Positions 22,009-40,666 of a stretch of 41,738 nucleotides of DNA are shown here, piece by piece. The position numbers and the translations under genes were made by a program. The stretch's first letter is position 1. Each line of letters begins with the position of its first letter. A model generated the notes under the pieces. That model was given only the letters and a program-made list of their open reading frames with translations. It was not told the DNA's origin and ran no database searches. Source of the stretch: a virus; IMG/VR virus record IMGVR_UViG_3300025151_000092, positions 1 through 41,738 of that record; one strand, given 5' to 3'.

Positions 22009-22344
22009 TTAAGAGAAAGGTGACCGACCTCCCTGGACTCCGAAAGTAGAACCTCCGTCTTTGTATTTAGGAGAAGACTTCTTCTTTCTCTTTTTCTTTA
22101 CTTTGCCTCCTTTCTTCATCATTTGAGGCTGTTGGCGTTGTTGCTGTTGTTGCTGTCCTTGCTGCTGTTGCATCAGTCTTGCCATAATTTTCTCAGCGGC
22201 TTCCATAGCCTCTGCTTCTGACATTCCTTCTTCATTCATCAACTTCTGAACAATTCTAGCTTTAAGCTCCTCTGGGCTAACTTGCTGTCTTCCACGACCA
22301 GCTGCCATTGGCCTGGCACCTCCTTGGTATCTTCGATTATACAT
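22009..22344 (-). CDS. Basic, Gln-rich small head protein with C-terminal SPF motif, 111 aa
   Basis: A short helical domain (residues 22-60, PEELKARIVQKLMNEEGMSE, then AEAMEAAEKIMARLM) is followed by a Gln run (QQQQGQQQQQQRQQPQ), a Lys-rich stretch (KKGGKVKKKRKKKSS) and an end GGRSPFS. The C-terminal S-P-F is shared with the next gene upstream and with right-arm proteins. Position directly after the 139-aa gene and the capsid gene suggests a protein that is packaged in or bound to the head and probably contacts DNA through its basic region. No known family is recognised. Confidence 0.5.
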   Translation of the reverse strand: MYNRRYQGGARPMAAGRGRQQVSPEELKARIVQKLMNEEGMSEAEAMEAAEKIMARLMQQQQGQQQQQQRQQPQMMKKGGKVKKKRKKKSSPKYKDGGSTFGVQGGRSPFS

Positions 22345-22347
22345 ATA

Positions 22348-22767
22348 TTATCTTCTTTTACTCATTTTGCTTCCCCGTCTTTTGCTGCCTCTCTGTACGC
22401 CATGTCCATGTTGGTCCATAGGGTTAGCGAAAGGAGATGTTCCTCCATCTTCAAATCCAATGAAGTCCAAAAACTCATTACCTTTCTTTTTAATTCGGTC
22501 AATCAAAGATGGTGGGGTACTTCTTCTACCCCCTGAACTTTTCTTATTTCCTTTTTTTATAGTGGAGCCTCCAGTTGCAATATTTTGCTCGCTTTTATCG
22601 CCTCCAACAGCAATACCACTAACACTACCTCCTGTGGCACTACCTCCTGTAGCAGACACATCCCCTACGCTGGAGTTAGAACCAGAACTAGAGTTAGAAC
22701 CAGATGCATTTTGGTACTTTCTCTTGCTTACTTTTCTCTTGCTTGTTTTTCTTTTATGTACGGCCAT
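22348..22767 (-). CDS. Basic, Ser/Gly-rich head protein with SPFANP motif, 139 aa
   Basis: The N-terminus is very basic (HKRKTSKRKVSKRKYQNASG). Residues 21-70 are Ser/Gly-rich and low in complexity. A short amphipathic helix (SLIDRIKKKGNEFLDFIGF) follows, then EDGGTSPFANPMDQHGHG (residues 106-123) and a basic tail. The SPF-x-NP motif followed by His-Gly is close to the start of the 152-aa right-arm protein (SPFTNPKGDGIHGIGG). It is the first gene after the major capsid gene and its hairpin. I infer a minor head protein or internal protein that binds packaged DNA. Confidence 0.5.
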   Translation of the reverse strand: MAVHKRKTSKRKVSKRKYQNASGSNSSSGSNSSVGDVSATGGSATGGSVSGIAVGGDKSEQNIATGGSTIKKGNKKSSGGRRSTPPSLIDRIKKKGNEFLDFIGFEDGGTSPFANPMDQHGHGVQRGSKRRGSKMSKRR

Positions 22768-22787
22768 GATTATTTTAGTTTAAGATA

Positions 22788-22807
22788 GGGGGAGTTTGAC
22801 CTCCCCC
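22788..22807 (-). terminator. GGGGGAG stem-loop after the major capsid gene (weak terminator or stabiliser)
   Basis: A 7-bp stem GGGGGAG/CTCCCCC with loop GTCAAA (minus strand) lies between the major capsid gene and the 139-aa gene. The sequence after it, TATCTTAAACTAAAAT, is not a clean T tract. It may therefore allow partial read-through, or protect the 3' end of the capsid mRNA. The stem matches that of the terminator at 17915-17940. Confidence 0.6.
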
Positions 22808-22826
22808 TCAGTTAAAAAAGGTTATA

Positions 22827-24497
22827 TTAAAACTCGTTAGTTTCGAGTTTCTCAATCATTACGACTCGAGACTTGTCTGGAATCCATGCTGACATTGAAG
22901 ACATGCAAGTGAACTCTCTTCCAGGCTGTGGTCGTGAGTAAGTAAATCCTTGCTCAAATACTGGTCCGTTAGTAGAACCGTAAGAGAAATCAGGCACATT
23001 CTTAGGCTTAACAATGTAAAGGTTACTTGTACCTTTAGATTTGTTATCAATCTCAACTCCTTTAGGGAATACGCTACGGTCAAGTACGTTAGAGTAAACT
23101 GGGTCAGAGATATCATACATTACTAGTGTGTAAGCTCTCTTAGAAAGACCTGCAGAGTATCCTCGGCTGATGTAGTCTCCGAAGCTATCGTAGTCAAGAG
23201 ATGGGTCGTGCTCAACTCTTACGTGACCAATTCCGTTTAGGAATGCCTCACCAATAGCATAAGAAGCGTAAGTTAAGTTGTATCTATCGCTACCAGAAAG
23301 AATCTTCACTGGAAGAGCCTCTTGGTCGATATGTACTGGAGTAGTGTTCTTGAACTCTTCTTTGAATAGCTCACGAACTAAGTTGTGTGCGTGGAATCCA
23401 GCCTTGAAAACTAATTTTCTGTCGTGGATTTGGATAGATGTACCGTGATAGATAATCTCAGCAGCACGTTGAATCAACTGACGTAATTCGCTTACGTTTT
23501 TGTAGATGAATCTGTGACCTCTACGTAACTGGTGGTAAAGTCCTTCGTTGATTAACTTCGAACCGTTGATACCAGTGATAGTCGCACCTCGGTCAAACAT
23601 CATACCCATTGCAGTAAGCTTCATCAACTCAGCCATTGCAAGAGCTTCCATGATAGGCTGAACTCGAACTGTGTTTTTAACAAGACGACCTGAGTTAGGG
23701 TTAATTTGTCCTACGAAGAAGTAATCTCCTCCAAGACGGTCTTGCATTTTCTGCAATCTATCAGTTAAGTGAGAAGCTTCTTTACCGTTTACAGTAAGAA
23801 CGTCTGCGTAAGCAGAGTATCCAACTTGTACCGCACGATAGTCACCCAAAGTATACTGTAATTTTACAGAGTTCTTAGCAAGTCCCATCATGTTAGGAGC
23901 AGAGTATTGAGTATCGAACTCACCAGCAACGTGGTCAATTTTTACATACTCAGTACCTGGCTTCAATTTAGAAGAAGGGAAATACTTGCTTCTGTCTCTT
24001 GTTACAAGCTGTACAGTGTGAACATAACCATCACCTTCGTCTACAACTTCTGAATCTTCGATAACAATTACTTGCTCACCATCTACTGGGTCGTAAGTAA
24101 GAATGTCACCAGGGGAGAAGGGGTGAGATAGTTTGATGTCGAAGAATGAACCGTCAACACCTAAGAAATCTCCTTCTTCTACGTTTTGAACAACGCAAGG
24201 TTTTTCAATATCCATTGCGATTTCGTAGTCGAAGCTTCCTCGAATACCATTAACAAGAATCTTATCAGAGTTCTTTAATGCATCCTTAATGAAAGGAACG
24301 TTTACGATACGAGCATTTTCAAAAAGCTCAAGCATCCCTAGAGATGTTCTATCATCTACATAGTCAGCGGCTTTAAGAGCAACTGAGTCAATGTACCCAA
24401 ATTGAGACTGGATGTCACTTTTATTGGTGACCCCAATCACAGTGGAGTCATTAAAGTTGGCTCCAATAAATTGTCCGTTAAAATTTTCTTTTCCCAT
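22827..24497 (-). CDS. Major capsid protein, 556 aa
   Basis: This protein is the best candidate for the HK97-fold capsid subunit. It lies after portal and scaffold-type genes, has about the size of crAss-like capsid proteins (roughly 490-560 residues), and is Ala/Gly-balanced with no low-complexity regions. Features include an N-terminal arm (NFNGQFIGANFNDSTVIGVT), a long central helix region (PIMEALAMAELMKLTAMGMM, residues about 280-300) and a C-terminal beta domain ending in AWIPDKSRVVMIEKLETNEF. A GGGGGAG hairpin follows it. Identification rests on order and composition; no catalytic signature exists for this fold. Confidence 0.7.
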   Translation of the reverse strand: MGKENFNGQFIGANFNDSTVIGVTNKSDIQSQFGYIDSVALKAADYVDDRTSLGMLELFENARIVNVPFIKDALKNSDKILVNGIRGSFDYEIAMDIEKPCVVQNVEEGDFLGVDGSFFDIKLSHPFSPGDILTYDPVDGEQVIVIEDSEVVDEGDGYVHTVQLVTRDRSKYFPSSKLKPGTEYVKIDHVAGEFDTQYSAPNMMGLAKNSVKLQYTLGDYRAVQVGYSAYADVLTVNGKEASHLTDRLQKMQDRLGGDYFFVGQINPNSGRLVKNTVRVQPIMEALAMAELMKLTAMGMMFDRGATITGINGSKLINEGLYHQLRRGHRFIYKNVSELRQLIQRAAEIIYHGTSIQIHDRKLVFKAGFHAHNLVRELFKEEFKNTTPVHIDQEALPVKILSGSDRYNLTYASYAIGEAFLNGIGHVRVEHDPSLDYDSFGDYISRGYSAGLSKRAYTLVMYDISDPVYSNVLDRSVFPKGVEIDNKSKGTSNLYIVKPKNVPDFSYGSTNGPVFEQGFTYSRPQPGREFTCMSSMSAWIPDKSRVVMIEKLETNEF

Positions 24498-24530
24498 TTT
24501 TCTCGATTTGTGTGTTTACTTTTAAAATTT

Positions 24531-25673
24531 TTATTTATTAGTGAAAGGATTTTTAGTTTGCCTATCCTTCGAAGGTTTGAAGGAAAAGTCTTTCTTTTCA
24601 GAAGTGTTTCCTTTTTTCTTTAATTCAAAAAATAATTTTTTACGCTCCTCCTGCTGCTTCTGTTGAGACACGTTTTCTATAAATGACTGAGGGTCAGTTA
24701 GAAATTGATACAACAAAACAGACCTTTGAGGGTCGTTTCTAAATGCAACATAAGCTTTGTCTATATCAGTAAACCCTGTATCTTTATTTACTTCTGTTAG
24801 ACTTTTAACTATTTGTCTAGCTTGCGTGTCTGCTATCTTTTGCTCCTTAAGAACTGTTCTAACGTTCTTTTTGTAGCTGCTTATAGCATCTTGACGCTGT
24901 TTTTGAGCTTGCTGTTGCCTTAGAAGCATTTGCTGGTGCTTACCTCTTAAATGCTCTTGGACTTTACCTATAGAAGTCTCAGCCTCTTCTAGTAAGTCAT
25001 TATTATCAAGTTTACTAATAAACTTTTGAATCTTATTATCATCCCAACCTACAAAGTTTTTATAGTAAGTATAAATTGCACTTACTTTTCCTTCTTGGGT
25101 TTCTATGTTTAAATTCTCTGCCCTGTTTAATTTGGAACGAGATTTATAGTAACTATCTAAGTCACCTCCCATCTTTTTATACTCTAGGTATTCTTGTTCC
25201 GCAGGGTCTAACGTAGAAAATATAGCACCTTTTAGGTTCTCTTTTTTCCACTTATCTTGCTGAGAAGATAATTGCTTAAATGTTTCAGCATCTATGTCTA
25301 AATCTTCTCTACCTTCAAAGTCTTCCCAAAACCCATCTTTTATTAATTTTTCAGCTGTTGCTTGATAATCAAAAAAAGCATCATTTGTTTCGAGTGCTGC
25401 TTCTACTGTTTGTTGAGATTTTTCACTACCTTCATCAAACTCAACTGGTTTGTCTAAGATATCTTCAATCTCTATTTCTTTTCTTTCTTCTACATCAGCT
25501 TCTTCTTTTGCTGGTGTTTCTTCCTGTTTGCTTTCCTCTGAAGTGTCTTGAGGTTCTTTTACAGGCTCGTCCTCCATTTCTGTTGTCGGTGTATCTTCTT
25601 CGTTATCTTCTAATTGAATAGTGAAAGGATTACCAATAGTAAATGGATTCTGTTGTGGTTTATCTTCTGCCAT
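24531..25673 (-). CDS. Probable scaffolding protein, 380 aa
   Basis: The first 75 residues are strongly acidic and Pro-rich (EDNEEDTPTTEMEDEPVKEP) and carry NPFT twice (QQNPFTIGNPFTI). The rest is almost entirely helical and charged, with a long coiled coil at residues 240-280 (LRQQQAQKQRQDAISSYKKN). The extreme C-terminus ends KNPFTNK. Acidic, helical proteins between portal and capsid genes are usually scaffolds. I start the gene at ATG 25673. A longer reading from a TTG at 25694 would begin inside the -7 box of the promoter at 25692-25723. The NPF motifs at both ends link it with the SPF motif of other proteins here. Confidence 0.6.
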   Translation of the reverse strand: MAEDKPQQNPFTIGNPFTIQLEDNEEDTPTTEMEDEPVKEPQDTSEESKQEETPAKEEADVEERKEIEIEDILDKPVEFDEGSEKSQQTVEAALETNDAFFDYQATAEKLIKDGFWEDFEGREDLDIDAETFKQLSSQQDKWKKENLKGAIFSTLDPAEQEYLEYKKMGGDLDSYYKSRSKLNRAENLNIETQEGKVSAIYTYYKNFVGWDDNKIQKFISKLDNNDLLEEAETSIGKVQEHLRGKHQQMLLRQQQAQKQRQDAISSYKKNVRTVLKEQKIADTQARQIVKSLTEVNKDTGFTDIDKAYVAFRNDPQRSVLLYQFLTDPQSFIENVSQQKQQEERKKLFFELKKKGNTSEKKDFSFKPSKDRQTKNPFTNK

Positions 25674-25691
25674 GTTGGTTGTTTTACGGTA

Positions 25692-25723
25692 CAAACTTAA
25701 AAATAATATTTAAATTAAACAAA
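25692..25723 (-). promoter_or_regulatory. Bacteroidota-type promoter in front of the scaffold/capsid genes
   Basis: Reading the minus strand, TTTG (25723-25720) is followed by 20 bases and then TAAGTTTG (25699-25692), a perfect match to the TAnnTTTG -7 box with the usual spacing. The expected start point lies about 13 bases before the ATG at 25673. It would give the scaffold and capsid genes extra transcription independent of portal. Confidence 0.75.
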
Positions 25724-25733
25724 TTTATTACAA
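25703..25733 (-). repeat. 31-bp promoter-associated repeat, copy 2
   Basis: This plus-strand block reads ATAATATTT, A, AATTAAACAAATTT, A, TTACAA. It differs from the copy at 28561-28591 in only two bases. It spans the -33 box and spacer of the promoter for the scaffold gene. Confidence 0.85.
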
Positions 25734-25798
25734 GGTATCTAACGTAGCACCTCGTAGGTAAAAAGTTTTACAAAGAATGTAAATCACAAAAAAGATAT

Positions 25799-25814
25799 TT
25801 TGTAAATTTACAAA
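25799..25814. promoter_or_regulatory. Perfect 16-bp palindrome TTTGTAAATTTACAAA (operator candidate)
   Basis: The palindrome lies 14 bases beyond the portal stop codon, in the 154-bp AT-rich gap before the scaffold gene. Related TTTACAA and TGTAAA words occur nearby (25768-25784) and in the divergent control region near 32.8 kb (32799-32815). It could be a repressor or activator site for the scaffold/capsid promoter, or part of an RNA hairpin after portal. Confidence 0.5.
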
Positions 25815-25827
25815 TTTTGTAATTTTT

Positions 25828-28530
25828 TTAATTTTTATTCATCCTAGCTATCTGAACTTGTTTGTTTGCTATACTTTCTCTAGTATCTAATTCCTGCCTT
25901 TTCAAGTTCATTTCTTGCTGTTTCATTAAATATGCTCTATCTGCTTCGATTTGTTTTTGACGAGTTTGTATTTCAAGTTGTCTTTGCTTGAAACGTCTGT
26001 CTAAATCGGAGGTGGACTGCTTTAATTGTTCTACCACTTTAGGTGTCTCTTCTTCATCTGGCATATCTTCATCTTTGATAAATCCTAGAGACAAGATAGT
26101 TTGTTTGTTAAGTGATATTTCTCCTTTGATTTGTTCTAGCTCAATCTTGTGTTGATGTTTAAGTTGCTCTAGTTCAAACTCATTAGCTTTTTCAATTTGC
26201 TGTTGCTGTTGCTGTTGTTTTTGCTGCATCTGTTGTTGCAACTCTGCTCTCTTTCTTCCTAGTCTAGCAATTTGTATTATCTTAGCTGTTGAGTCTGCAG
26301 ATATTACTTGTGCCATATCCTCCAAGTTCTTCATAATAGTGTTGTCTTGGAAATAGGTCTTCTTAAGAGTCTCAAGCTCTGTTCTCCTTTTAGAATTATT
26401 TTGAGTGTAGATTTTAAATCTTCTCATTGGAAGATGTGGGTCTAGCATAGTAACAAAATGCCTGGTAGAGTCACTATCAGTATAATTAACAGTTACATCC
26501 TTACCTTCCTTTTGTAACCACTGAGCAACATTTATATGCATCTCTGCAGTTCGTTGATGGAACTTGGAAAACTTATCAAACCACACCTCGGTCTGAGCGT
26601 ATGATGCATCCTGAGTTACTTTTATTCCTGTTGCAGTTTGCTGCTCAATAGGACCTGCCATCCTTTGAGGGTTCAATCCTAATTTTTCATACGCTCTGTT
26701 TTTTATACCTTGAGCATACTGCATTTTACCTAACATGGCAGCCGTAAGGTCCATGTTGACCATTTGGAAATTATTGAAAGCTGTTCCTCTAGCTTGAGAA
26801 GAGTCAACAGGAAGAAGACCAAGATTCCTAGTCACTTCCATCAACTTGCCAATTGCTTCGTCCCCTCCGTAGTCCTTCAAGAACTCAGGCATGTAAGCCA
26901 AATCCATTAGAAAGAACAATCCTAGCTCCTTAGACATATAGTCTCTAGCCATATTCATAGCCATAGAGTATTCTACTTGGTCTATCTCTACTCTTGAAAC
27001 AAGAGAAGTGTTTTCAAACATTCCATTTACTGGAAGTAAAGTGTGGAACATAGAACTCTCACCTCTTAATTGATACTCTAGAGGTTTTCCGTATAGGTAA
27101 AGATGGTCTTTTAAATCAGTGTTTTCCCTTAGAATCTTTACACCTTTCCATACTTCGGGGACATAATCCCACATTATAGTATTCTCTTTTGGGTTCTTTT
27201 GATTCTCTTCTAGAGACACTGTTCTCAACTGCTTAATCTCAAGTTCATTGATTAAGTCCTTTAAAAGTTCATCGGTTACCACCTCTGTAACTAATTGACC
27301 TGTGTCTGGTTTCTTGATAGTTAAAAACCCAATTCTTTTATAAGACACCCAATAGGCTTCTACAACTCTAATAAGGTCATACCTAGTATCGTAGTCGTTG
27401 AACAATAAATTTAGATTTTGGTTCTGATTAGGGAAGTGACCCCTGTATCCGAAATCCATTCCAGTTTGGTCTTGTAGGACTCCTAGATTTTCGTATGCGA
27501 TATAATCAGCATAAGGAACTCTTTTATTAGTACCACCAAAATTTTCTAGCCAAGACTGAGTGTCTTTTATATCAGCAGAAACAGAAACTTCTGCTTGCGT
27601 GTAATGTTTTGATTTTAGTAAGTCTCTTTTATCACTCTCACTTATCATGTGACCGTAGTTCGTCACTACTTGGTTAGGAGACAGATATTGTATTCTACCT
27701 ACATACTCACCAAGTTCAGGATATCTTTCTTCTTGAGTTACAGAAGTAAAAGTATTTAGAGGTGACCACCTTTCAGGTTGATAATAATCGTGACCTATTC
27801 TCCAATGCAAAAAGCATCTACCAGTAATAAGATAATCTCTAAACAAGTCTCTGTAGAGTTCATCCATATAGAATCTAGTCTCTCCCTCTTCGATTGTTTG
27901 CTCTGCCCATGAAATGTACTTCGGTTTCCATTGGGTATTCATGTAATCTTGTACTTCTTTTGGAATGTTTTGTTGTTTGAACTTTCGTATCTCTTGTAGA
28001 TAGTTTTGCTTCTGCTCTTCATTCTCAAAAGTCTGATTAGCTGGGTCTACACCCATAGCTGCTAACTTGAGATTTATTTCTGCTTCAACAGCCTTCCCTA
28101 CTTTAGCCCATAGCAGGTCTTTCTTCTTTCTTAAATACTCGTTAGTAGATAATGGGTCATTAGCATACACAATAGTTGGATTGGGCTTCTTTATGTACTC
28201 ACCAATTAAAGTATTTATAATAGGTTCTACGAACCCGTAATGCTGTAAATCTTCTGCTAAACTAGCTTGTGAGCGTAACATATCTACCTCAGATAAAAAG
28301 GCAGAGGTGTTCGTCATATCACTATAAGTGTAGCTACCTTCAACTATTCTGTAAGCATCTTCGAATCTTCTTCTAGAAACATTTAGTTGTCGAATACCAA
28401 TAGTTTCTAAGGTGTCCATACAGTCTCTAAACCAGGCTTTATTCTTCTTTTTGTCAGGAAGAGCTTGGGCAGGGAGCCTCATAGTATCCCCCAAAAAAGG
28501 TGCATCCTTAAGATTTACGTCAAAAAACAT
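25828..28530 (-). CDS. Portal protein, 900 aa
   Basis: The gene lies directly after the terminase large subunit, the usual place for portal, and its length fits the large portals of crAss-like phages (about 800-900 residues). It has long helical regions and a central region with clusters of aromatic residues (YRDLFRDYLITGRCFLHWRI, residues about 225-245). The C-terminal 180 residues form a Gln-rich coiled coil (QQMQQKQQQQQQQIEKANEF and similar), as expected for the barrel or crown end pointing into the capsid. A promoter at 28550-28581 puts the start at ATG 28530 with a leader of about 13 bases. A palindrome-containing AT-rich gap follows the gene. Confidence 0.75.
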   Translation of the reverse strand: MFFDVNLKDAPFLGDTMRLPAQALPDKKKNKAWFRDCMDTLETIGIRQLNVSRRRFEDAYRIVEGSYTYSDMTNTSAFLSEVDMLRSQASLAEDLQHYGFVEPIINTLIGEYIKKPNPTIVYANDPLSTNEYLRKKKDLLWAKVGKAVEAEINLKLAAMGVDPANQTFENEEQKQNYLQEIRKFKQQNIPKEVQDYMNTQWKPKYISWAEQTIEEGETRFYMDELYRDLFRDYLITGRCFLHWRIGHDYYQPERWSPLNTFTSVTQEERYPELGEYVGRIQYLSPNQVVTNYGHMISESDKRDLLKSKHYTQAEVSVSADIKDTQSWLENFGGTNKRVPYADYIAYENLGVLQDQTGMDFGYRGHFPNQNQNLNLLFNDYDTRYDLIRVVEAYWVSYKRIGFLTIKKPDTGQLVTEVVTDELLKDLINELEIKQLRTVSLEENQKNPKENTIMWDYVPEVWKGVKILRENTDLKDHLYLYGKPLEYQLRGESSMFHTLLPVNGMFENTSLVSRVEIDQVEYSMAMNMARDYMSKELGLFFLMDLAYMPEFLKDYGGDEAIGKLMEVTRNLGLLPVDSSQARGTAFNNFQMVNMDLTAAMLGKMQYAQGIKNRAYEKLGLNPQRMAGPIEQQTATGIKVTQDASYAQTEVWFDKFSKFHQRTAEMHINVAQWLQKEGKDVTVNYTDSDSTRHFVTMLDPHLPMRRFKIYTQNNSKRRTELETLKKTYFQDNTIMKNLEDMAQVISADSTAKIIQIARLGRKRAELQQQMQQKQQQQQQQIEKANEFELEQLKHQHKIELEQIKGEISLNKQTILSLGFIKDEDMPDEEETPKVVEQLKQSTSDLDRRFKQRQLEIQTRQKQIEADRAYLMKQQEMNLKRQELDTRESIANKQVQIARMNKN

Positions 28531-28549
28531 ATGATAATTTAATGTCTAG

Positions 28550-28581
28550 CGAATATATGCATAATATTTTAATTAAACAAA
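28550..28581 (-). promoter_or_regulatory. Bacteroidota-type promoter for portal
   Basis: On the minus strand TTTG (28581-28578), a 20-base spacer and TATATTCG (28557-28550) match the TTTG-N20-TAnnTTTG form with one mismatch. The start point would lie about 13 bases before the portal ATG. The element sits between the terminase stop codon and portal. Confidence 0.65.
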
Positions 28582-28591
28582 TTTGTTACAA
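28561..28591 (-). repeat. 31-bp promoter-associated repeat, copy 1
   Basis: The plus-strand block reads ATAATATTT, T, AATTAAACAAATTT, G, TTACAA and directly abuts the stop codon of the terminase gene (28592-28594). It matches the copy at 25703-25733 in 29 of 31 bases. A weaker copy lies at 8456-8486. Confidence 0.85.
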
Positions 28592-32760: not shown

Positions 32761-32792
32761 CAAACATAGTAAATAAAATTGACAATGTCAAG
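32761..32792 (-). promoter_or_regulatory. Leftward promoter of the virion operon
   Basis: On the minus strand CTTG (32792-32789) is followed by 20 bases and TATGTTTG (32768-32761), a full match to the TAnnTTTG box with standard spacing. The -33 region also reads TTGACA and lies inside a 13-bp palindrome. The leader to the winged-helix gene would be about 77 bases. Confidence 0.7.
32779..32791. promoter_or_regulatory. TTGACA-A-TGTCAA palindrome over the leftward -33 box
   Basis: A perfect 13-bp inverted repeat with one central base covers the -33 element of the leftward promoter. A protein bound here would block that promoter, so it is a candidate operator. Confidence 0.5.
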
Positions 32793-32798
32793 GGTTTT

Positions 32799-32815
32799 TG
32801 TAAAAAAAATTTACA
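32799..32815. promoter_or_regulatory. TGTAAA-N5-TTTACA inverted repeat (operator candidate)
   Basis: Six-base arms separated by five A residues lie between the two divergent promoters. The arms match those of the 16-bp palindrome at 25799-25814, so the same regulator could act at both places. Confidence 0.4.
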
Positions 32816-32828
32816 GGTAAAAAAAATA

Positions 32829-32862
32829 TTGTAAATTACTTGTATATGTCAGATATATTTTG
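32829..32862 (+). promoter_or_regulatory. Rightward promoter candidate for the recA operon
   Basis: TTG at 32829-32831 and TATATTTT at 32854-32861 (seven of eight bases of TAnnTTTG) are spaced 22 bases apart, a little long. The expected start point lies about 17 bases before the ATG at 32886. The region is the only gap that can supply transcription to the first right-arm genes. Confidence 0.45.
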
Positions 32863-32885
32863 TAGTTTCACGCAAAACCATATTT

Positions 32886-33119
32886 ATGACAGACCCTAAC
32901 GAATTATTAGACAGGGAGTACTTTCAAGACTACTTCGAGTGTGTAGTAGATTATGTGGACACTGAGCACTTGTCAGATGAGCTATATGACGAACTACGAA
33001 CAGAAATAGAGGATTTTGTTTTCGAATTATTTCTACATGATGTCAGATGTGGTATTGCCACTCATTTTGTGGAGACAATGTTCAAATTATTTAAAACAAA
33101 ACTAAACAATGGGAAGTAA
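32886..33119 (+). CDS. Acidic hypothetical protein, first gene of right operon, 77 aa
   Basis: Strongly acidic and helical (NELLDREYFQDYFECVVDYV, then ELYDELRTEIEDFVFELFLH). It overlaps recA by 11 bases, so it is probably translated with it. Acidic small proteins at this place could mimic DNA or modulate a host factor; no motif supports a specific function. Confidence 0.5.
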   Translation: MTDPNELLDREYFQDYFECVVDYVDTEHLSDELYDELRTEIEDFVFELFLHDVRCGIATHFVETMFKLFKTKLNNGK

Positions 33120-34101: not shown

Positions 34102-34772
34102 GAGAGGACTTAAGTACTAGAAAGACAAAAACCAACCCGTCTTTTAAGTACGAATTGAGTGAAGAGCAAAAACTTGCAAAAGAAAAAATTCTTGACTCTA
34201 AGATTGCTATCATTACTGGTAAAGCAGGTACGTCAAAGACGTTCTTAGCTTCACAGATAGCCTTAGATTTGTTTTTGAAGGGAGGAGTAGAGAAAATGTA
34301 TATAGCTCGCCCACAGGTCTCTACAGAGGACATGGGATACCTTCCAGGGAACAAAGATGAGAAGATGAGGCAGTGGTGTGCTCCCGTTATAGAAAACATG
34401 GAAATTCTAAGAGAGAACGGGAAGAAGGAGGTAGAGAAGTGGTTGAAAGATGGTCAACTAGAGTTATTACCCTTGCAGTTTGCTAGAGGAAGAACAGTTA
34501 CCAACAGTATAATGATTATTGATGAAGCACAGAACTTGACTAAACTTCAAACGTATCTATTCTGCACAAGACTTGGTAAGGGCTCTCTTATGATATTTAC
34601 AGGAGACCTAAGACAGAATGATTTGAAGCAACCTAGTCGAAGTGGTTTTCATCAACTGATAGAAACTGCAGACAGACTAGATGAAATGATTCACGTGGAA
34701 CTTCAGCAGAATTACAGAGACCCTATGGTTGCTAAATTCATGGAACAGTACGAAAAAATTTGCGGCTGGTAA
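34098..34772 (+). CDS. phoH: PhoH-like ATPase, 224 aa
   Basis: This protein has the PhoH/RecD-like P-loop fold: a Walker A at residues 41-48 (GKAGTSKT), a conserved segment YIARPQVSTEDMGYLPG (68-84), Walker B IMIIDEAQNL (138-147), a sensor FTGDLRQND (167-175) and VELQQNYRDP near the end. Most PhoH proteins read GPAGTGKT; here Ser replaces the Gly before Lys, a notable change for an ATPase. PhoH-like proteins are common in marine phages, and their role, possibly RNA-linked, is unsettled. The ATG overlaps the recA stop by four bases and its stop overlaps the next ATG by one base. Confidence 0.85.
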   Translation: MREDLSTRKTKTNPSFKYELSEEQKLAKEKILDSKIAIITGKAGTSKTFLASQIALDLFLKGGVEKMYIARPQVSTEDMGYLPGNKDEKMRQWCAPVIENMEILRENGKKEVEKWLKDGQLELLPLQFARGRTVTNSIMIIDEAQNLTKLQTYLFCTRLGKGSLMIFTGDLRQNDLKQPSRSGFHQLIETADRLDEMIHVELQQNYRDPMVAKFMEQYEKICGW

Positions 34773-35248
34773 TGTGGGTTTACGATGACAAAAAGATAAG
34801 CTCTATAGAGCAGGTACCTACCGATGCGATTGGCTTTGTGTATTGTATAACTAATCTATCCAAGGATAGGATGTACATAGGTAAAAAAAGCTTGTATCAC
34901 TGGAAAAGGGTTGGAATCAAGAGGTTTCAGGAGCTAAAACTAGAGGGTTGTCAGGTAAAAAGACATAAAAACAAAAAAAAATCCAAAAAAGGCTTGCCTG
35001 TTTGGGTACATAAGGCTAGATTAGAGTCTGATTGGTTGTTGTACACGGGTTCGAATACACAACTTAACGAGGATATAAAGAATGGGGATAGGTTTGAAAA
35101 GGTGATTTGGGAGTTTTCTAATTGTGAAAAGAAACTCTCATTCCTTGAAACTGAAGCTCAATTCAAGATGGATGTTATTAGAGATAGTAGGAGGTTTTAT
35201 AACGGTAACATTCTAGGGAAATATTTCCCAGGGGACTTAAACTGTTAA
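34772..35248 (+). CDS. GIY-YIG-type nuclease, 158 aa
   Basis: The N-terminal module has GFVY (residues 21-24) and YIG (35-37), ten residues apart, as in the GIY-YIG nuclease fold. It is followed by a conserved basic region (KRHKNKKKSKKG), ESDWLLYTGSN and an end FYNGNILGKYF. A short form of this protein occurs in many phages as a putative endonuclease. A catalytic Arg in the usual position is hard to place with certainty. A TTG codon at 34760 could extend the frame, but the ATG at 34772 overlaps the PhoH stop (TAATG), so I chose that start. It could act in recombination, in DNA degradation or as a free-standing homing nuclease. Confidence 0.65.
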   Translation: MWVYDDKKISSIEQVPTDAIGFVYCITNLSKDRMYIGKKSLYHWKRVGIKRFQELKLEGCQVKRHKNKKKSKKGLPVWVHKARLESDWLLYTGSNTQLNEDIKNGDRFEKVIWEFSNCEKKLSFLETEAQFKMDVIRDSRRFYNGNILGKYFPGDLNC

Positions 35249-35249
35249 A

Positions 35250-36239
35250 ATGATTATAAAAGATATAATCAAGGCACATATCAAGGAGATACTTGATATC
35301 CATGCCCAAACTCAAAACTTCACCCACACAGCAGAGGAGTTCTGCAAGAAGTTTAAATATAAGTATAGTGATTCTTGGAGAAGAGCTGTTAGTAGGTATC
35401 TTAACTCACTTCCTGAGATTGATGCAGATGATGCATTAAGAGAAGAAGCACAAAGCATTAGCCCTGCAAGAGTGCTTATATTTGATATTGAGACTGCACC
35501 ACTTATGTCTAACATATGGGGACTGTGGAATCAAAACGTAGGGCACAACCTATCAATGCTAGAATCAGACTGGTTTATTATCACTTGGTCGGCAAAGTGG
35601 TTGTTCGAAGAAGAAGTATTTACAGGTAAACTAACACCTAAAGAAGCAAAGAATCAAGATGATTCTAGAATAGTAAGAAACTTTTGGCAGCTCTTGAACG
35701 ATGCAGATATTGTAATCGCTCACAATGGAGACAAGTTTGATATTAAAAGAGTTAACACTCGCTTCCTGAAACTGGGTTTACACCCACCGACACCGTACCA
35801 GACTATTGACACCCTTAAACATGTCAGGAAGAAGTTTAACATTTCGTCTAACAAACTAGACTATGTTGCTAAGTTTTTAGAGCTTGGAGGTAAGATGGAG
35901 ACTGGAGGCTTTGAGTTGTGGAAAGGATGTATGGAGGGAGACCAAGAATCCCTCAACAAGATGGAAGAGTATAACATCAAAGATGTGACTCTTCTAGAGG
36001 AAGTATACTTAAGAATACGTTCTTGGATTACTCCTCATCCAAATATGGGGCTTCACATAGGCGAAAACGTAACTTGTTGTGCAACTTGTGGAGGCACAGA
36101 CTTAACTATTGTAGGAACTTATAAGACATACATGTCTGAGTACGATGCTCTCAGATGTGATTCTTGTGGAAGTATTAACAGGTCAAGAGCGAGCTCTTTG
36201 ACAACAGAGGCTAGAAGGCTACTAACTAAATCAGTGTGA
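35250..36239 (+). CDS. DnaQ/RNase H-fold 3'-5' exonuclease with zinc ribbon, 329 aa
   Basis: Residues 1-65 form a basic helix-turn-helix-like N-terminus. Then follow exonuclease motifs: ExoI FDIETAP with D79 and E81, ExoII AHNGDKFD with D161 and D164, and ExoIII YNIKD with Y241 and D245. These are the metal-binding residues of the family related to the exonuclease domain of PolB. Residues 276-306 form a zinc ribbon, with CCATCGG and CDSCG. The combination suggests a DNA-directed 3'-5' exonuclease whose two extra domains help bind substrate. No polymerase domain is present. It begins one base after the GIY-YIG gene and overlaps the next gene by one base. Confidence 0.75.
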   Translation: MIIKDIIKAHIKEILDIHAQTQNFTHTAEEFCKKFKYKYSDSWRRAVSRYLNSLPEIDADDALREEAQSISPARVLIFDIETAPLMSNIWGLWNQNVGHNLSMLESDWFIITWSAKWLFEEEVFTGKLTPKEAKNQDDSRIVRNFWQLLNDADIVIAHNGDKFDIKRVNTRFLKLGLHPPTPYQTIDTLKHVRKKFNISSNKLDYVAKFLELGGKMETGGFELWKGCMEGDQESLNKMEEYNIKDVTLLEEVYLRIRSWITPHPNMGLHIGENVTCCATCGGTDLTIVGTYKTYMSEYDALRCDSCGSINRSRASSLTTEARRLLTKSV

Positions 36240-36601
36240 TGAGTAAAATAGTATTTATAGAATTAACAGGTTACTACGCAACTTCAAACAATTTTGCTGA
36301 TACTTTAGATTGTGAAAAGTGTTTGGAAGAAGCAAAAGAAAAAGCTGAGAATTTAGGATTGTCTTCAGAACGTTTTGAAGAAGCTTGTGAGGAAATTTGT
36401 GGAGACGATTTAGAAGAGGTGGACACATCTGATTTGAAAAAAGAAAAAATATTAATTAGAGTAGAAGATATAAAGAACATATCTCAAAACTCCAAAGGTA
36501 AAGTTATTATTCAGTCTAGGCACAGTTTTATGCCTAGGCTATATGACGACACGTATGAATCAGTCATAGAAAGAGTAAAAGATTATATTACAATTGTATA
36601 A
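36239..36601 (+). CDS. Hypothetical acidic protein, 120 aa
   Basis: The start is ATG 36239, which overlaps the stop of the exonuclease gene by one base; a GTG codon one position earlier is less likely. The protein has a beta N-terminus (KIVFIELTGYYATSN), an acidic helical middle (KAENLGLSSERFEEACEEIC) and a C-terminal part with KVIIQSRHSFMPRLYD. No known family. It is translationally coupled to genes on both sides. Confidence 0.5.
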   Translation: MSKIVFIELTGYYATSNNFADTLDCEKCLEEAKEKAENLGLSSERFEEACEEICGDDLEEVDTSDLKKEKILIRVEDIKNISQNSKGKVIIQSRHSFMPRLYDDTYESVIERVKDYITIV

Positions 36602-36810
36602 TGAACATAAGTGATAAACATTTAAAACTATTACATAAACTATCAAAAAGTTGGTTAGACTACAGGAGACTGGGTTATGACGAAAAAGTCATAGAGGATG
36701 ACCTCCTAGAAAATATTATGCACATAGGATTAAATGTTGAAGATGCACTTATCATTGTAGACGAAATAAAAATGAGAGTTAAATGGGGTTTCGATTGTTG
36801 CCCCAACTAA
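36601..36810 (+). CDS. Hypothetical helical protein, 69 aa
   Basis: A helical small protein (KHLKLLHKLSKSWLDYRRLG, then MHIGLNVEDALIIVDEIKMR) that starts in the stop codon of the previous gene (TAATG). No recognisable domain or membrane segment. It ends 42 bases before the next gene, the first real gap in this operon. Confidence 0.45.
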   Translation: MNISDKHLKLLHKLSKSWLDYRRLGYDEKVIEDDLLENIMHIGLNVEDALIIVDEIKMRVKWGFDCCPN

Positions 36811-36842
36811 TTGTCAATAATTTGGATAATTGAATAATTTTT
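36810..36842 (+). promoter_or_regulatory. Weak internal promoter candidate
   Basis: ATTG (36810-36813), a 21-base spacer and TAATTTTT (36835-36842) are a partial match to the Bacteroidota promoter form. It lies in the only gap between 33.1 and 38.2 kb and could supply the genes from 36853 onward. Low confidence because both boxes are imperfect. Confidence 0.3.
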
Positions 36843-36852
36843 ACTATATTAC

Positions 36853-37107
36853 ATGGCTAGAAGAAAGAATTATAAACCTATAAAAGAGGAGTCCTTTTGG
36901 GATGCTAGAGCTAGGTATGAAGATTTAAAAACTTCAGGGGAACTTTTTATTAAGTATCCTGACATGGTAGGCATATGGAGCTACGATATGATGAAGTTTT
37001 TATGTGATGATGATGTTCTTCAGGAGGAGGAAAAACAGGAGGAGGAGCCAAAAAAAGATATAGACACCCATACTACACAGTGGTATGATGAAAAAGAAGA
37101 AGAATGA
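36853..37107 (+). CDS. Hypothetical protein with acidic end, 84 aa
   Basis: The N-terminus is basic (ARRKNYKPIKEESFWDARAR), and the C-terminus is highly acidic and Glu-rich (DDVLQEEEKQEEEPKKD). No membrane segment. It is the first gene after a 42-base gap that may carry a promoter, and its stop overlaps the next ATG by four bases. Function unknown. Confidence 0.45.
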   Translation: MARRKNYKPIKEESFWDARARYEDLKTSGELFIKYPDMVGIWSYDMMKFLCDDDVLQEEEKQEEEPKKDIDTHTTQWYDEKEEE

Positions 37108-37196
37108 AAAGATTAGTTTGCTTATTTGTAAAATGGGTTACCCTTGGTAAAGTTTGCATGGGTTATTGCGAGGTAAAAAATTGTAGAAAAAAATAA
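37104..37196 (+). CDS. Tiny Cys-containing peptide, 30 aa
   Basis: An ATG overlapping the previous stop (ATGA) opens MKRLVCLFVKWVTLGKVCMG, then YCEVKNCRKK. It has four Cys and a moderately hydrophobic middle. It ends with TAATG, leading into the next tiny gene. Support is the strict start/stop coupling on both sides; no function can be assigned. Confidence 0.45.
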   Translation: MKRLVCLFVKWVTLGKVCMGYCEVKNCRKK

Positions 37197-37270
37197 TGTC
37201 AATAGAAACTGCTATAGTTATTGTATTATTACTAGCATTTATTATTATTGACAGACTACGTAAGTCATGA
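37196..37270 (+). CDS. Single-membrane-segment peptide, 24 aa
   Basis: The peptide (MSIETAIVIVLLLAFIIIDR, then LRKS) is one hydrophobic helix with a basic end. It starts in the stop of the 30-aa gene and its stop overlaps the holin-like gene by four bases. Its size and location next to a holin-like gene suggest a membrane partner, such as an antiholin or membrane-disrupting peptide. This is inferred only from topology and order. Confidence 0.45.
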   Translation: MSIETAIVIVLLLAFIIIDRLRKS

Positions 37271-37509
37271 GAAAGTTTTTTAAAGCAATGTTTTCAGACG
37301 GAGGAGAAGTATCTTCTAAGAGAGTAGTAACAGCAATGTGCCTGCTTTTTATGCTGATTGCCTTCACATCAAACTTGTTTTGTGATTACACTGTAGAACA
37401 ACATATGTTTGAATCCTTACAATGGATAGTCATGGCAGGACTAGGATTCACAGCATCAGAAAAGTTTTCTGAAATAATAACTAATAGAAAAAACCAAAAC
37501 CATGAGTAA
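37267..37509 (+). CDS. Holin-like membrane protein, 80 aa
   Basis: Residues 18-40 (KRVVTAMCLLFMLIAFTSNL) and 50-66 (LQWIVMAGLGFTASEKF) form two membrane segments. A short N-terminus (RKFFKAMFSDGGEVSS) and a charged C-terminus (TNRKNQNHE) flank them. The GLGFTASEKF stretch recalls small two-segment phage proteins often listed as holins. No endolysin is visible in this window, so a partner would be elsewhere. The gene overlaps the 239-aa gene by eight bases. Confidence 0.5.
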   Translation: MRKFFKAMFSDGGEVSSKRVVTAMCLLFMLIAFTSNLFCDYTVEQHMFESLQWIVMAGLGFTASEKFSEIITNRKNQNHE

Positions 37510-38221
37510 AAAAGTTTATAACATTAGAGGGTATCGCTATGGTGGCGAGATTACTATCGGAAAAGTAACAGAAGAATTCTATAATTATTGGGCTGGTTCA
37601 GACGAAGAAGAGTTCACTAATTATATTCTAGATGCTTGGGAGGATAATGAAGATGAGAATATCCCTGAAATGACAGAAAATGGAGACCACTACTGGCATG
37701 ATATTGATGATATCCTGCATTTCTACGGAAGCCACGCTAGTTCAACTGTAACTTTGATAGATACAGACACTGATGAGGAGAAAGAAGTAGAACACCAGTT
37801 CTTATGGGGCCGAGAAGGCGGTTTCTTTGACGAGGAGGAGCCTGATTGGGATAACCTGCACCAAGACATCAATCAAGAAGATTACGTGCCTGTAGTGGCT
37901 TGTATGAGTGAAGAGAAAGGAGGATTGGCTACTTGGGTTCTAGAGTTAGAGGAAGGCGAAGAGTTCGATGAGAAAAAACTATCTGCTGGAATACTAGAAA
38001 CTAACTTTGGAGAGTTTGTAGAAAAACTTTACTATGATGGTAAAGAATTAGAAGATGATGGGGGAGGAAGTACAAATGGGAAAGGGTTTACTGTCAAACT
38101 TGGATGGTTTAACACAAAATGGACAGATAGCCTTGAACAATACGCTGAGGGAAGCGAAAGATTAACCGAAGCACTAAATGAATTGAAAGAACAGCTTGAA
38201 TGGGAAGCTGAGAATAACTAA
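37502..38221 (+). CDS. Hypothetical acidic protein, 239 aa
   Basis: The protein is rich in Asp and Glu, about a quarter of residues. The N-terminus (IRGYRYGGEITIGKVTEEFY) recalls a family of phage proteins of unknown function with the YGGE-x-T-I-G motif. The end is helical (ERLTEALNELKEQLEWEAEN). No catalytic motif is evident. It overlaps the holin-like gene by eight bases (ATGAGTAA). The strong acidity could indicate DNA mimicry, but there is no further evidence. Confidence 0.5.
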   Translation: MSKKVYNIRGYRYGGEITIGKVTEEFYNYWAGSDEEEFTNYILDAWEDNEDENIPEMTENGDHYWHDIDDILHFYGSHASSTVTLIDTDTDEEKEVEHQFLWGREGGFFDEEEPDWDNLHQDINQEDYVPVVACMSEEKGGLATWVLELEEGEEFDEKKLSAGILETNFGEFVEKLYYDGKELEDDGGGSTNGKGFTVKLGWFNTKWTDSLEQYAEGSERLTEALNELKEQLEWEAENN

Positions 38222-38251
38222 AAATAAAAATAAAATTAAAAACGAGAAATA

Positions 38252-38956
38252 ATGCCTAGTTACGATATATCGATTAAAAAAGAAAACCTAGTCAAGCACG
38301 GATGTGCTGTACCTGCAGGGTACGTAAGATTAAGCTCAGTGATAGCAAGATTACCTGCATTTAAAAATGAGGAAGATGCAAGAGCAGCAGGCCTAAGAGA
38401 CTGTGATATGTATTCACTTGGTAGCATTAACGCTATTGCTATTTTGGGTTCAGGAGGTACAGGAGGTACAGGAACAGGAGACAGAGACTTTACAAATGCT
38501 CTTGACATTGCTATTCCTCAAGAAGAAGTTGTAAAGTATGGTTGCCAAGTGCCAAATGGTTATGTAAGGTTCACATCTGTGTACGGAAGTTTACCTGTAT
38601 ACCCTAATGAAGCAGCTGCCGTAGGGGACGGACTTAAAAAATGCGACCCTTATCTTTCGGCAACTAGCGGAGACTTAAATTTAGTAACTGGTAATTTTGG
38701 TTCCAATAACCAAGGAGCAACGGAAAAGAAAGTACCTTACTTTGATATTGCAATTAAAAAAGAGCAAATTCTATTTAGAAACTGCAATCTTCCAAAAGGA
38801 TACATAAAACTTAGCCAAGTATTGGCTTCATTCCCTGTTTACTCTTTAGAGAAGGCAAAAACTGTTTTACCTGAGTGTGGAGGATATCTTCGTATCAACA
38901 CAGCAGGTAAAATTACTGATGCAAATGTTTCTTTTAATAGACAAATTGTACCTTAA
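38252..38956 (+). CDS. Protein of three 80-residue repeats, 234 aa
   Basis: The protein is built from three copies of one module, with the first conserved Asp at residues 5, 85 and 165, exactly 80 apart. The pattern is D-I-x-I-x-x-E-x(3)-x-x-C-x-x-P-x-G-Y, with Cys at 18, 98 and 178, then a strand, then a second Cys and Tyr about 33 residues later. The N-terminus of the 359-aa virion protein on the minus strand has the same module. The short linker after copy one is Gly/Thr-rich. A paired module in a virion protein suggests that this protein also goes to the particle. Its function is unknown. Confidence 0.65.
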   Translation: MPSYDISIKKENLVKHGCAVPAGYVRLSSVIARLPAFKNEEDARAAGLRDCDMYSLGSINAIAILGSGGTGGTGTGDRDFTNALDIAIPQEEVVKYGCQVPNGYVRFTSVYGSLPVYPNEAAAVGDGLKKCDPYLSATSGDLNLVTGNFGSNNQGATEKKVPYFDIAIKKEQILFRNCNLPKGYIKLSQVLASFPVYSLEKAKTVLPECGGYLRINTAGKITDANVSFNRQIVP

Positions 38957-38958
38957 TC

Positions 38959-39261
38959 GTGCCGAGAAAAAAGAAAGACCCTAAAGTAGGGACTGGTAAG
39001 AAGCCTAAAGGTTCTGGTAGAAGGCTTTATACGGATGAGAATCCAAAAGATACTGTTCGTATAAAGTTTGCTACGCAGAAGGATGCTAGAGACACAGTGA
39101 AGAAAGTGAAAGATGGTAAAAAACCTTTCGCAAGAAAAATTCAAATACTAACTGTAGGAGAGCAGAGGGCAAAAGTTATGGGTAAGGACAAAGTTGCGGA
39201 TATCTTCAAGAAAGGGAAGAACGCAGTAAGAAGAAAACATGGTAAACCCACAAAAAAGTAA
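38959..39261 (+). CDS. Lys/Arg-rich small protein, 100 aa
   Basis: The start is a GTG two bases after the previous stop. The sequence is very basic (PRKKKDPKVGTGKKPKGSGR, then GKNAVRRKHGKPTKK) with a small beta/alpha part (DTVRIKFATQKDARDTVKKV, QILTVGEQRAKVM). It is the first of a run of basic proteins. Binding to DNA or RNA is the likely property. It may be packaged in virions or act early after infection; no family is recognised. Confidence 0.5.
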   Translation: MPRKKKDPKVGTGKKPKGSGRRLYTDENPKDTVRIKFATQKDARDTVKKVKDGKKPFARKIQILTVGEQRAKVMGKDKVADIFKKGKNAVRRKHGKPTKK

Positions 39262-39263
39262 GT

Positions 39264-39422
39264 ATGAGAGATTGGGATTTAACGGTATCATTACACTGGC
39301 CACATGATAGGCTTGCTCTAGGTTGGGAATATTTACGCCCCACCTCGACAGACAAGTGGCATACTGTCCAAATCTTTCTTTTTATGGCAACATTCACCTT
39401 AAACATCGAAAGTCATGCCTAA
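39264..39422 (+). CDS. Small protein with LGWEY motif, 52 aa
   Basis: The frame runs from ATG 39264 (MRDWDLTVSLHWPHDRLALG, then WEYLRPTSTDKWHTVQIFLF) to TAA 39420-39422. The layout, a W-x-L-x-V strand, a P-x-x-R-x-A-L-G-W-x-Y core and a hydrophobic F-L-F-x-x-T end, recalls a short phage protein family of unknown function. It starts two bases after one basic gene and overlaps the next by eight bases. Its composition is unlike its very basic neighbours. Confidence 0.5.
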   Translation: MRDWDLTVSLHWPHDRLALGWEYLRPTSTDKWHTVQIFLFMATFTLNIESHA

Positions 39423-39630
39423 GAAAGCACGTAAACCGTTACCAAAGAGATATAAAGCTGCTCCTGGCTCTGCTAGGGAGAAGATGATTCGTAAAGCGGG
39501 AAAGCTTTATCGAGAAGGAAAAGTAAAACAAGCTGCTGAACTTAGAGAAAGAATGGAGAAGAAAGTTCGGGATGCAAAGAAAAAGAAAACCACCACAAGT
39601 AAAAAATCTGTAAAACGAAAGAAAAAATGA
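39415..39630 (+). CDS. Lys/Arg-rich small protein, 71 aa
   Basis: The whole protein is a basic helix (REKMIRKAGKLYREGKVKQA, then AELRERMEKKVRDAKKKK) with a Lys-rich tail. It begins with an eight-base overlap with the previous gene and ends with a four-base overlap with the next. Helical Lys-rich proteins can condense DNA. No other function is visible. Confidence 0.5.
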   Translation: MPKKARKPLPKRYKAAPGSAREKMIRKAGKLYREGKVKQAAELRERMEKKVRDAKKKKTTTSKKSVKRKKK

Positions 39631-39947
39631 GAAAGTCACCATTTACAAGTCAGGGCACCGATGCTAGTGGTATGGGTATAAAAAGTTATAAGAAAGGAGG
39701 TAAAACCTCAAAGAAAGGAGGAGGCTCTGTTGACTCCAAGCTTGCCGCAAAGGCAGCTAGTTCCAAATATTCCAAATCCACTCTTAAAAAAGTATATAAG
39801 AGAGGATTAGGAGCATTTGCATCTAGCGGTAGTAGACCAGGTATGTCTGCACACCAATGGGCTATGGGCAGAGTTAATTCATTTATTAAAGGAGGTCACT
39901 CTCAAGACAATGACTTGAAAGGGGGTGGCAAGAAGAAAAAGAAATAA
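39627..39947 (+). CDS. Basic protein with KSPFT start and HQWAMGRVNSF motif, 106 aa
   Basis: The start RKSPFTSQGTDASGMG shares the S-P-F motif with head proteins of the left arm. A Lys/Gly-rich linker follows (KKGGKTSKKGGGSVD), then a compact module of residues 55-95 (VYKRGLGAFASSGSRPGMSA, then HQWAMGRVNSFIKGG) and a basic end. This module is a known recurring phage unit, found in putative capsid-associated or processing proteins and listed under DUF names, without assigned function. The S-P-F start suggests that it joins the same virion compartment as the other S-P-F proteins. Confidence 0.6.
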   Translation: MRKSPFTSQGTDASGMGIKSYKKGGKTSKKGGGSVDSKLAAKAASSKYSKSTLKKVYKRGLGAFASSGSRPGMSAHQWAMGRVNSFIKGGHSQDNDLKGGGKKKKK

Positions 39948-39949
39948 GT

Positions 39950-40114
39950 ATGGATTTTAAATCAGTACCAGCACCAGCAGGGTTTCATTGGATGAAACAA
40001 AAAGATGGTAAATATAAACTTATGAAAGACCCTAAAGATGGATATATGAAACATCCTGGTTCTTCAAAGAGAGCAAAGTTTGGCATCCAGAAAACTCACA
40101 GGAAGAAGAAGTAA
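39950..40114 (+). CDS. Basic small protein with GFHWM motif, 54 aa
   Basis: The frame runs from ATG 39950 (MDFKSVPAPAGFHWMKQKDG, then KYKLMKDPKDGYMKHPGSSK) to TAA 40112-40114. Small proteins with P-A-P-x-G-F/Y-H-W-M, a K-Y-K-L-M-K run and a basic end recur in many tailed phages, as far as I recall, without known function. Its stop overlaps the next ATG by one base. It belongs to the same basic cluster as its neighbours and may be a DNA-associated or virion component. Confidence 0.55.
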   Translation: MDFKSVPAPAGFHWMKQKDGKYKLMKDPKDGYMKHPGSSKRAKFGIQKTHRKKK

Positions 40115-40215
40115 TGGAACACATTCCCTCAAATAACACCCTAGAGATGGATAGATTGATATACACTATAACAACTACCTATTACGAAGGATTAAAATAT
40201 AATACACATGGCTAA
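40114..40215 (+). CDS. Small peptide, 33 aa
   Basis: An ATG overlapping the previous stop (TAATG) gives MEHIPSNNTLEMDRLIYTIT, then TTYYEGLKYNTHG. It overlaps the next gene by eight bases (ATGGCTAA). Support is the tight coupling on both sides; the composition is unlike the basic neighbours and no function is recognised. It could be only a translational bridge. Confidence 0.4.
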   Translation: MEHIPSNNTLEMDRLIYTITTTYYEGLKYNTHG

Positions 40216-40666
40216 GAAAAGTCCGTTTACAAATCCTAAAGGAGATGGCATTCATGGTATTGGAGGCCAAAATAAATCTCGTAAAGTAAGAAAGCATCAG
40301 AATGCTTCTTATGATGCTGATAAATATGCAGAGAACAGGAGAACACTTAACTTTGACTATCTACAAAACTTAACTCGCAAAGAGCAAAAACAAGAGGCTA
40401 AGTTAATCCACGATGCTCACTCAGCAGAAAGAGATAGAGCATACGCTAATCAGAATATATCCAAAAGAGATGTTTCAGTTCCTACTATAATGCATAACAT
40501 TAAACACCACGGAACACCTTTCAAAATTACTTTTGCAACGGATAGGTCCACTGGGAAGCCAATAAACCAAGCAAATATCCAGTATGGTAGAATGCTTACA
40601 CCCAAGCAAATAGAAAGAAAAATGAGAAACCGAAGCACAAGAGGCAGAGGTCAATTAGGAAGTTAA
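40208..40666 (+). CDS. Basic protein with KSPFTNP start, 152 aa
   Basis: The protein starts KKSPFTNPKGDGIHGIGG, a near copy of the SPFANPMDQHGHGV segment in the 139-aa head protein. A basic region follows (KSRKVRKHQNASYDADKYAE) and then a helical region rich in Lys, Arg and Glu (LTRKEQKQEAKLIHDAHSAE). The end is a Lys/Arg-rich tail with PKQIERKMRNRSTRGRG. It probably binds nucleic acid. It ends four bases before the HNH gene. The S-P-F start suggests that it is packaged in the virion. Confidence 0.6.
   Translation: MAKKSPFTNPKGDGIHGIGGQNKSRKVRKHQNASYDADKYAENRRTLNFDYLQNLTRKEQKQEAKLIHDAHSAERDRAYANQNISKRDVSVPTIMHNIKHHGTPFKITFATDRSTGKPINQANIQYGRMLTPKQIERKMRNRSTRGRGQLGS

Follow-up and report, generated by a model that had tools for sequence, protein, structure and literature searches.

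The stretch of DNA analysed here, referred to as the window, is a virus record of 41,738 bases which, judged from its genes, derives from a crAss-like phage in the broad sense, not assigned to the order Crassvirales proper, and which stops within a giant gene at the muzzle position. Its relatives reach 90-92 kb, and the window is therefore probably a fragment. The terminase, portal and capsid proteins match head families of PHROGs, a crAss-type tail ring protein 1 is present (CrAss_Ring_1, 53.7 bits, cut-off 27), and BLASTP comparison with crAss001 recovered the terminase (1e-8) and the portal (6e-7), with no match for the capsid protein at E<=1. Named relatives are distant, with capsid identity of 27-32% (10 records), and no cultured clade member was found among the named phage records. 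The Pfam domains of crAss cargo proteins 1 and 2, which gp45 and gp46 of crAss001 do match, were found in none of the three proteins encoded after the muzzle position in the relative G002. The genes relevant to this study are listed below, a box being a copy of one of two short motifs treated in the text.

6324..7277, minus strand: tail ring protein 1, 317 aa (Pfam CrAss_Ring_1), with C-terminal GFGTFQNPNPFRF
22009..22344, minus strand: 111-aa basic protein with C-terminal TFGVQGGRSPFS, an FGV box followed by an SPF box
22348..22767, minus strand: 139-aa basic protein, after the capsid gene, with SPFANPMDQHGHGVQ near the C-terminus, an SPF box followed by an HGV box
22827..24497, minus strand: major capsid protein, 556 aa (phrog_35737, phrog_11589), putative docking partner
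24531..25694, minus strand: scaffold candidate, 387 aa with a TTG start codon, 380 aa if translation begins at the ATG of residue 8
25828..28530, minus strand: portal protein, 900 aa (phrog_6547), alternative putative docking partner
39627..39947, plus strand: 106-aa basic protein with a DUF5824 domain and N-terminal MRKSPFTSQGTDASGMGIK
40208..40666, plus strand: 152-aa basic protein with N-terminal MAKKSPFTNPKGDGIHGIGG

A previous sequence-only reading had pointed out that S-P-F or N-P-F, followed by T, A or S, recurs near the ends of proteins from both arms of the window, and proposed that it docks DNA-binding proteins into the head. All the peptides it quoted are present in the frames and at the ends that it gave, with the exception of the copy in the 139-aa protein; as it begins at residue 111, roughly 28 residues short of the C-terminus, it lies near the end and not at it. 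The called window proteins contain eight copies of [SN]PF[TAS]; seven are in five of the proteins named in that reading and the remaining one is internal, at residue 172 of the 317-aa protein. Most of the motif copies in the window use different codons.

Terminal copies were defined as [SN]PF no more than 20 residues from a protein end and were counted over family-clustered proteins, with a single random representative drawn per family and partial ORFs scored at true ends only; gene calling was mechanical, so that part of the called genes will be spurious. IMG/VR supplied 15 contigs of the clade, with terminase identity of 83-95%, plus one distant contig. Five additional loci at 44-58% terminase identity lie beyond the clade contigs, G012 (26%) was excluded from clade statistics, and eight more distant crAss-like loci with 247 families served as controls. 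Since G005 and G013, as well as G006 and G011, are 99.9% identical across the compared stretch, contig counts are not all independent. An excess over shuffled proteins and a presence in relatives, both of which the docking proposal implies, were found. Of the 52 window families, 5 have a terminal [SN]PF, whereas 400 whole-protein shuffles gave 0.35 on average (maximum 3) and shuffles inside the ends only gave 0.42 (maximum 3). Among the 129 families that lack a window member the count is 7 (0.99 shuffled, maximum 5). The count for all clade families is 11 or 12 of 181, depending on the random representative drawn, and the clade excess persists across end windows of 10 to 30 residues. It is weaker when restricted to families present in more than one contig, where 5 of 83 compares with 0.67 in shuffles (maximum 4) and with 0.83 in end shuffles (maximum 5). 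The control loci display no excess (1/247 families, 1.8 shuffled); five individual proteins, namely four terminases and one capsid protein, carry a terminal [SN]PF there, of which one family representative was counted. A 467-aa protein of the window (14345-15748) has NPFIGTQ at residue 430, kept in G002, which falls beyond the 20-residue window and was not counted.

In most cases [SN]PF is paired with a second motif, [FMH]G[IVT], up to 25 residues away and in either order, and together they make up a two-part tag; the residue after [FMH]G[IVT] is often Q, E or K. The second box precedes [SN]PF in C-terminal tags (TFGVQGGRSPFS, GGFGVQEMGGKKSPFRG) and comes after it in N-terminal tags (MRKSPFTSQYADGSGMGIQ, MKKSPFRSSSSNQEGFGIE). 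The His-Gly pair noticed earlier in the 139- and 152-aa proteins constitutes one form of this second half. Both halves were then required within 25 residues of each other inside the terminal 40 residues. Of 181 clade families, 13 have such a pair (0.10 shuffled, maximum 2 in 1000 rounds), as do 8 of the 129 that lack a window member (0.08 shuffled, maximum 3) and none of the 247 control families. These statistics are exploratory, because the pair was defined once the data had been inspected. The tag concentrates in small basic proteins of the clade (8/36 families) compared with the other families (4/145), and none of 27 small basic control families has it. With the tag masked, BLASTP among 20 carriers and near-carriers gave no mutual match at E<=0.01 except for one orthologous pair. 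Many tags have a third recurrent element nearby (YKDGG or a related xDGG/xGG), for example in the products of window 22009-22344 and of G002 50468-53533 (L097:10468-13533).

The signal is also conserved. An alignment of six 111-aa-protein orthologues, two of which are identical, is invariant at 21 of its last 30 columns and at 17 of the other 112. The peptide SNQEGFGI[QE]RN is common to three different proteins, between which 8 of its 11 codons differ synonymously. The match between the 152-aa protein and the relative G001 is confined to the tag region (residues 4-29, 50%); among named phages and plasmids this protein has no match, and among named phages neither does the tag peptide. The 106-aa protein contains a DUF5824 domain (Pfam PF19141, 44.3 bits, cut-off 25, residues 47-88), a domain found in many phages and for which no paper was found in open-licence PMC text. 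All four clade DUF5824 proteins have an N-terminal PF box (three KSPF, one KAPF), whereas, among the matches listed (the best 80 of 101 loci), none of the 60 distinct homologues from outside the clade carries [SNTA][PN][FYL] within 20 residues of either end. In the model of the 106-aa protein the first 30 residues, tag included, have a mean pLDDT of 43-51, and the model has no Foldseek match at E<=0.001. The shared short signal of the earlier proposal stands as a sequence pattern, by its enrichment, its conservation and carriers that lack other similarity, while loading into the head is something we infer from that pattern.

In relatives, the slot following the capsid gene holds one to three small ORFs, at least one of them with an FG[IV] box, in all 12 contigs having both flanks. 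The other half is looser: the slot has strict SPF in 7 of the 12, SNF or PNF in 4, and in one it is masked. Further C-terminal tags are found in the 172- and 70-aa proteins of G001. The LPF at the C-termini of G001 and G002 proteins of 213 and 103 aa was not counted as the motif, as these ends resemble the tips of single-strand-binding proteins. In the right arm of G006, G007, G011 and G014, adjoining proteins of 325-396 aa and of a 227-aa type (cut short in G007, 141 aa in G014) have similar N-terminal tags and divergent bodies, MGFRK replacing SPF in the 325-396-aa proteins, and a third tagged protein of 281 aa is present in G006 (cut short) and G011. Searches of the 227-, 281-, 325- and 396-aa proteins against Pfam and PHROGs gave no match or weak ones only (E 0.05-0.08). 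The 1021-aa protein of G002 has a tag-like N-terminal stretch, QYKDGGGYFKHQMISPFFGVS, preceded by about nine residues; its gene lies two genes past the giant muzzle-position gene and adjoins a gene with a match to a virion structural protein family.

The scaffold candidate has no PHROG or Pfam match, and its designation derives from its place between portal and capsid genes and from similarity to genes at the same place in relatives. It carries NPF at residues 16, 22 and 382 (387-aa numbering), and neither end has an [FMH]G[IVT] box. In an alignment of 15 scaffolds, all 9 clade members have both the C-terminal [KR]NPF and the N-terminal block of NPF, which adjoins an acidic stretch of high variability; three relatives keep NPF in part, with the C-termini KNPFLD, KNPLG and TSPFT, and the C-terminal phenylalanine column is at least 90% conserved, even without NPF. 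The scaffold candidates of crAss001 and csAssE-Sib lack NPF. In an AlphaFold2 model the tails (1-79 and 357-380) are mostly below pLDDT 50, with a helical core between them, so that the NPF copies are predicted to sit on disordered tails. G019, a nearly full relative of 130 kb whose capsid protein is 66% identical, has kept SNPFANP at one scaffold end and TSPFT at the other, and PFxNP is common to this scaffold and to window proteins. The post-capsid slot is empty both in G019 and in three other loci of its tier, and no strongly basic protein of G019 was recognised as carrying the two-part tag. As G019 keeps the scaffold motif in the absence of clear tagged basic proteins, the motif of the scaffold is probably older than most of the tagged passengers, as far as one such relative can indicate. 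Other ORFs of G019 with terminal NPF encode 319 and 43 aa, and a 79-aa protein (84136-84375, minus strand, net +5) ends in FGLEEMVVKSKDKNPFYD, possibly a tagged protein outside the clade.

The tag is a conserved, modular terminal motif on ends that are probably disordered, and its SPF/NPF half is common to the tails of the scaffold. The occurrence of the same short tag on unrelated, mostly small proteins and, in part, on the scaffold suggests that it loads passenger proteins into the virion. The tag would copy the docking peptide of the scaffold, and tagged proteins would bind the pocket of the scaffold while the head forms; this pocket would most likely lie on the inward-facing side of the capsid protein or, failing that, on the portal, and the docked passengers would stay within the finished virion, where part of them may neutralise the packaged DNA and others may be ejected into the host. 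That a two-part linear tag in disordered ends binds one common partner by copying the scaffold docking peptide, its passengers ending inside the virion, is in our judgement slightly better than an even bet. In its favour we count the enrichment at protein ends, the excess of pairs, the bias to small basic proteins, the post-capsid slot, the dissimilarity of the masked bodies, the synonymous codons, the DUF5824 proteins outside the clade that have no tag, the NPF ends of the scaffold and the 1021-aa protein of G002. Against it we count the post-hoc definition of the pair, the weaker excess in families of several contigs, the scaffold without the FG box, the loose SPF half, the strand and RecA setting of the right-arm genes, the ring protein of G019 and the null result for cargo domains in G002.

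The location of the receptor is where the tail ring protein bears on the argument. Earlier taken for a connector ending in a looser match, the 317-aa protein is the crAss tail ring protein 1, and its terminal peptide fits both halves of the tag. The protein is tagged in all three clade contigs that display its end, the C-termini of two clade relatives being GFGTMQNPNPYRF and GFGTFQNPNPFRF; that of G019 has FNPNSF in place of NPF. In crAss001, ring protein 1 occupies the end of the tail next to the portal (PMC10172136), and the tag could accordingly be an assembly signal received by the portal or the tail vertex, which would place the carriers at the vertex or tail and not in the shell. Certain distant terminases, which must reach the portal, lend this slight support with doubled SPF/NPF ends (e.g., KSNPFAVAPKNPFGIK):

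L120:39820-41859, minus strand: terminase
L122:3816-5825: terminase
L123:3768-5795: terminase
L216:9905-11992: terminase
L221:9974-12022: terminase

However, [SNT]P[FY] in the last 25 residues was found in 5 of 55 distinct terminases, not above shuffles (1.56, maximum 5 in 500), and terminase tails were rejected as a source of the motif; the terminases of the clade end in KNFGR. Moreover, the C-termini of scaffolds usually bind the coat protein. A vertex receptor is, on this evidence, unlikely, with a minor share of the probability. As a separate observation, the terminase of csAssE-Sib (L118:20406-23219) contains an insert of about 240 residues after RFGK, ending in VTHN before the next conserved block, which looks like an intein.

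A maturation protease could also be the common partner, the motif being its recognition site in scaffold and internal proteins alike. There is a precedent in T4, in which the scaffold and the internal proteins are cut by one protease at a very short site (PMC9026906). Several copies of the motif are nevertheless the final residues of their proteins (SPFS, NPFL, SPFK), which would leave almost nothing for a protease to remove. Six 40-residue ends examined have no T4-type [LI]xE, and no Peptidase_S78 was found in any of the four genomes searched, in a search whose controls worked; a Peptidase_S77 search, which gave no match even in its controls, carries no weight either way. We regard cleavage at the motif as very improbable.

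The charge of the carriers raises a different explanation, that the tag binds DNA itself, as SPxK-like turns in basic tails do, and is no docking signal. Net charges (K+R-D-E) are +15, +19, +21 and +18 for the 111-, 139-, 106- and 152-aa proteins, respectively, and K or R often precedes SPF. The earlier statement that most of the motif proteins are very basic is correct for these four small proteins; the scaffold (-20) and ring protein 1 (-5) are acidic and carry the SPF/NPF box all the same, and the second box is neutral. Direct DNA binding by the tag is thus hardly probable. The description of the carriers as DNA-binding, a putative role, is derived from charge alone.

The right-arm genes bring in the last alternative. 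Those of the 106- and 152-aa proteins are on the strand opposite to the head genes, in an arm which carries a RecA homologue, and their tag might target a partner outside the virion, in replication, transcription or the host, the NPF of the scaffold being coincidental or addressed to the same partner. The post-capsid slot, both ends of the scaffold and ring protein 1 point instead to assembly, as does the PFxNP shared with the G019 scaffold, and a non-virion target appears improbable. Small proteins nearby were also noted. A 54-aa basic protein (39950-40114) belongs to a small family with a conserved FxIQK end that has members in Pelagibacter and Roseobacter phages; it was considered as a tag carrier for its FGIQ and rejected, since relatives in these phages have FQIQKKH and FDIQKAH at the same position and the box therefore belongs to its own family. 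A 96-aa very basic protein (40671-40961) has weak similarity to HNH endonucleases and matches phrog_4590, of unknown function, and a short repeated module is common to a 234-aa right-arm protein (38252-38956) and the N-terminus of a 359-aa left-arm protein (16738-17817).

On a bolder reading, the tag might be a general, exchangeable address copied from the scaffold, whose gain at either end makes a protein a virion passenger, so that close relatives swap passengers fast and the tag stays; we advance this tentatively, giving it somewhat less than an even chance. If the docking reading is true, the virion passengers of a group of crAss-like phages would be readable from sequence, the choice of carried proteins would be testable by a single residue change, and a tag mimicking the scaffold would be a tool to load chosen proteins into a phage head. 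No such tag was found described in open-licence PMC literature on crAss-like cargo, virion proteomes, scaffold motifs, terminase and portal motifs, packaging signals, capsid targeting and internal proteins.

Several known systems have a comparable design. In encapsulins, short end peptides (cargo-loading peptides) dock cargo inside an HK97-fold shell; these are cellular compartments, and the likeness is one of general design. One of the two nearest systems is that of the T4 internal proteins IPI-III, which have a shared short end peptide and divergent mature parts and are targeted into a core formed with the scaffold, their signals being N-terminal propeptides of 10-19 residues that the prohead protease removes after L/I-x-E (excerpt of PMC9026906). 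As with the T4 capsid targeting sequence, a short terminal peptide is common here to otherwise different proteins. Unlike in T4, the clade tag occurs at either end, being C-terminal in the 111-aa protein, the two G001 proteins and others, its ends lack [LI]xE in the six examined, and it is known from sequence alone. If the docking inference holds, the clade tag would work like the T4 signal, yet it would not be a member of that kind, because it is found at C-termini as well and its association with a protease is unproven. The other nearest system is DarB of P1, whose N-terminal 30 residues are sufficient to direct a reporter to the capsid (PMC9024508); DarB is one large protein, whereas the clade has many small unrelated carriers, and the two are likened by description only. 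The crAss001 virion stores large cargo proteins (gp45, gp46 and RNA polymerase subunits) in head and tail, for which the excerpt of PMC10172136 mentions no common end motif, while the tagged proteins of the clade are mostly small. The clade tag differs from both the T4 and the DarB signals in being also C-terminal and in having its SPF/NPF half in the scaffold as well.
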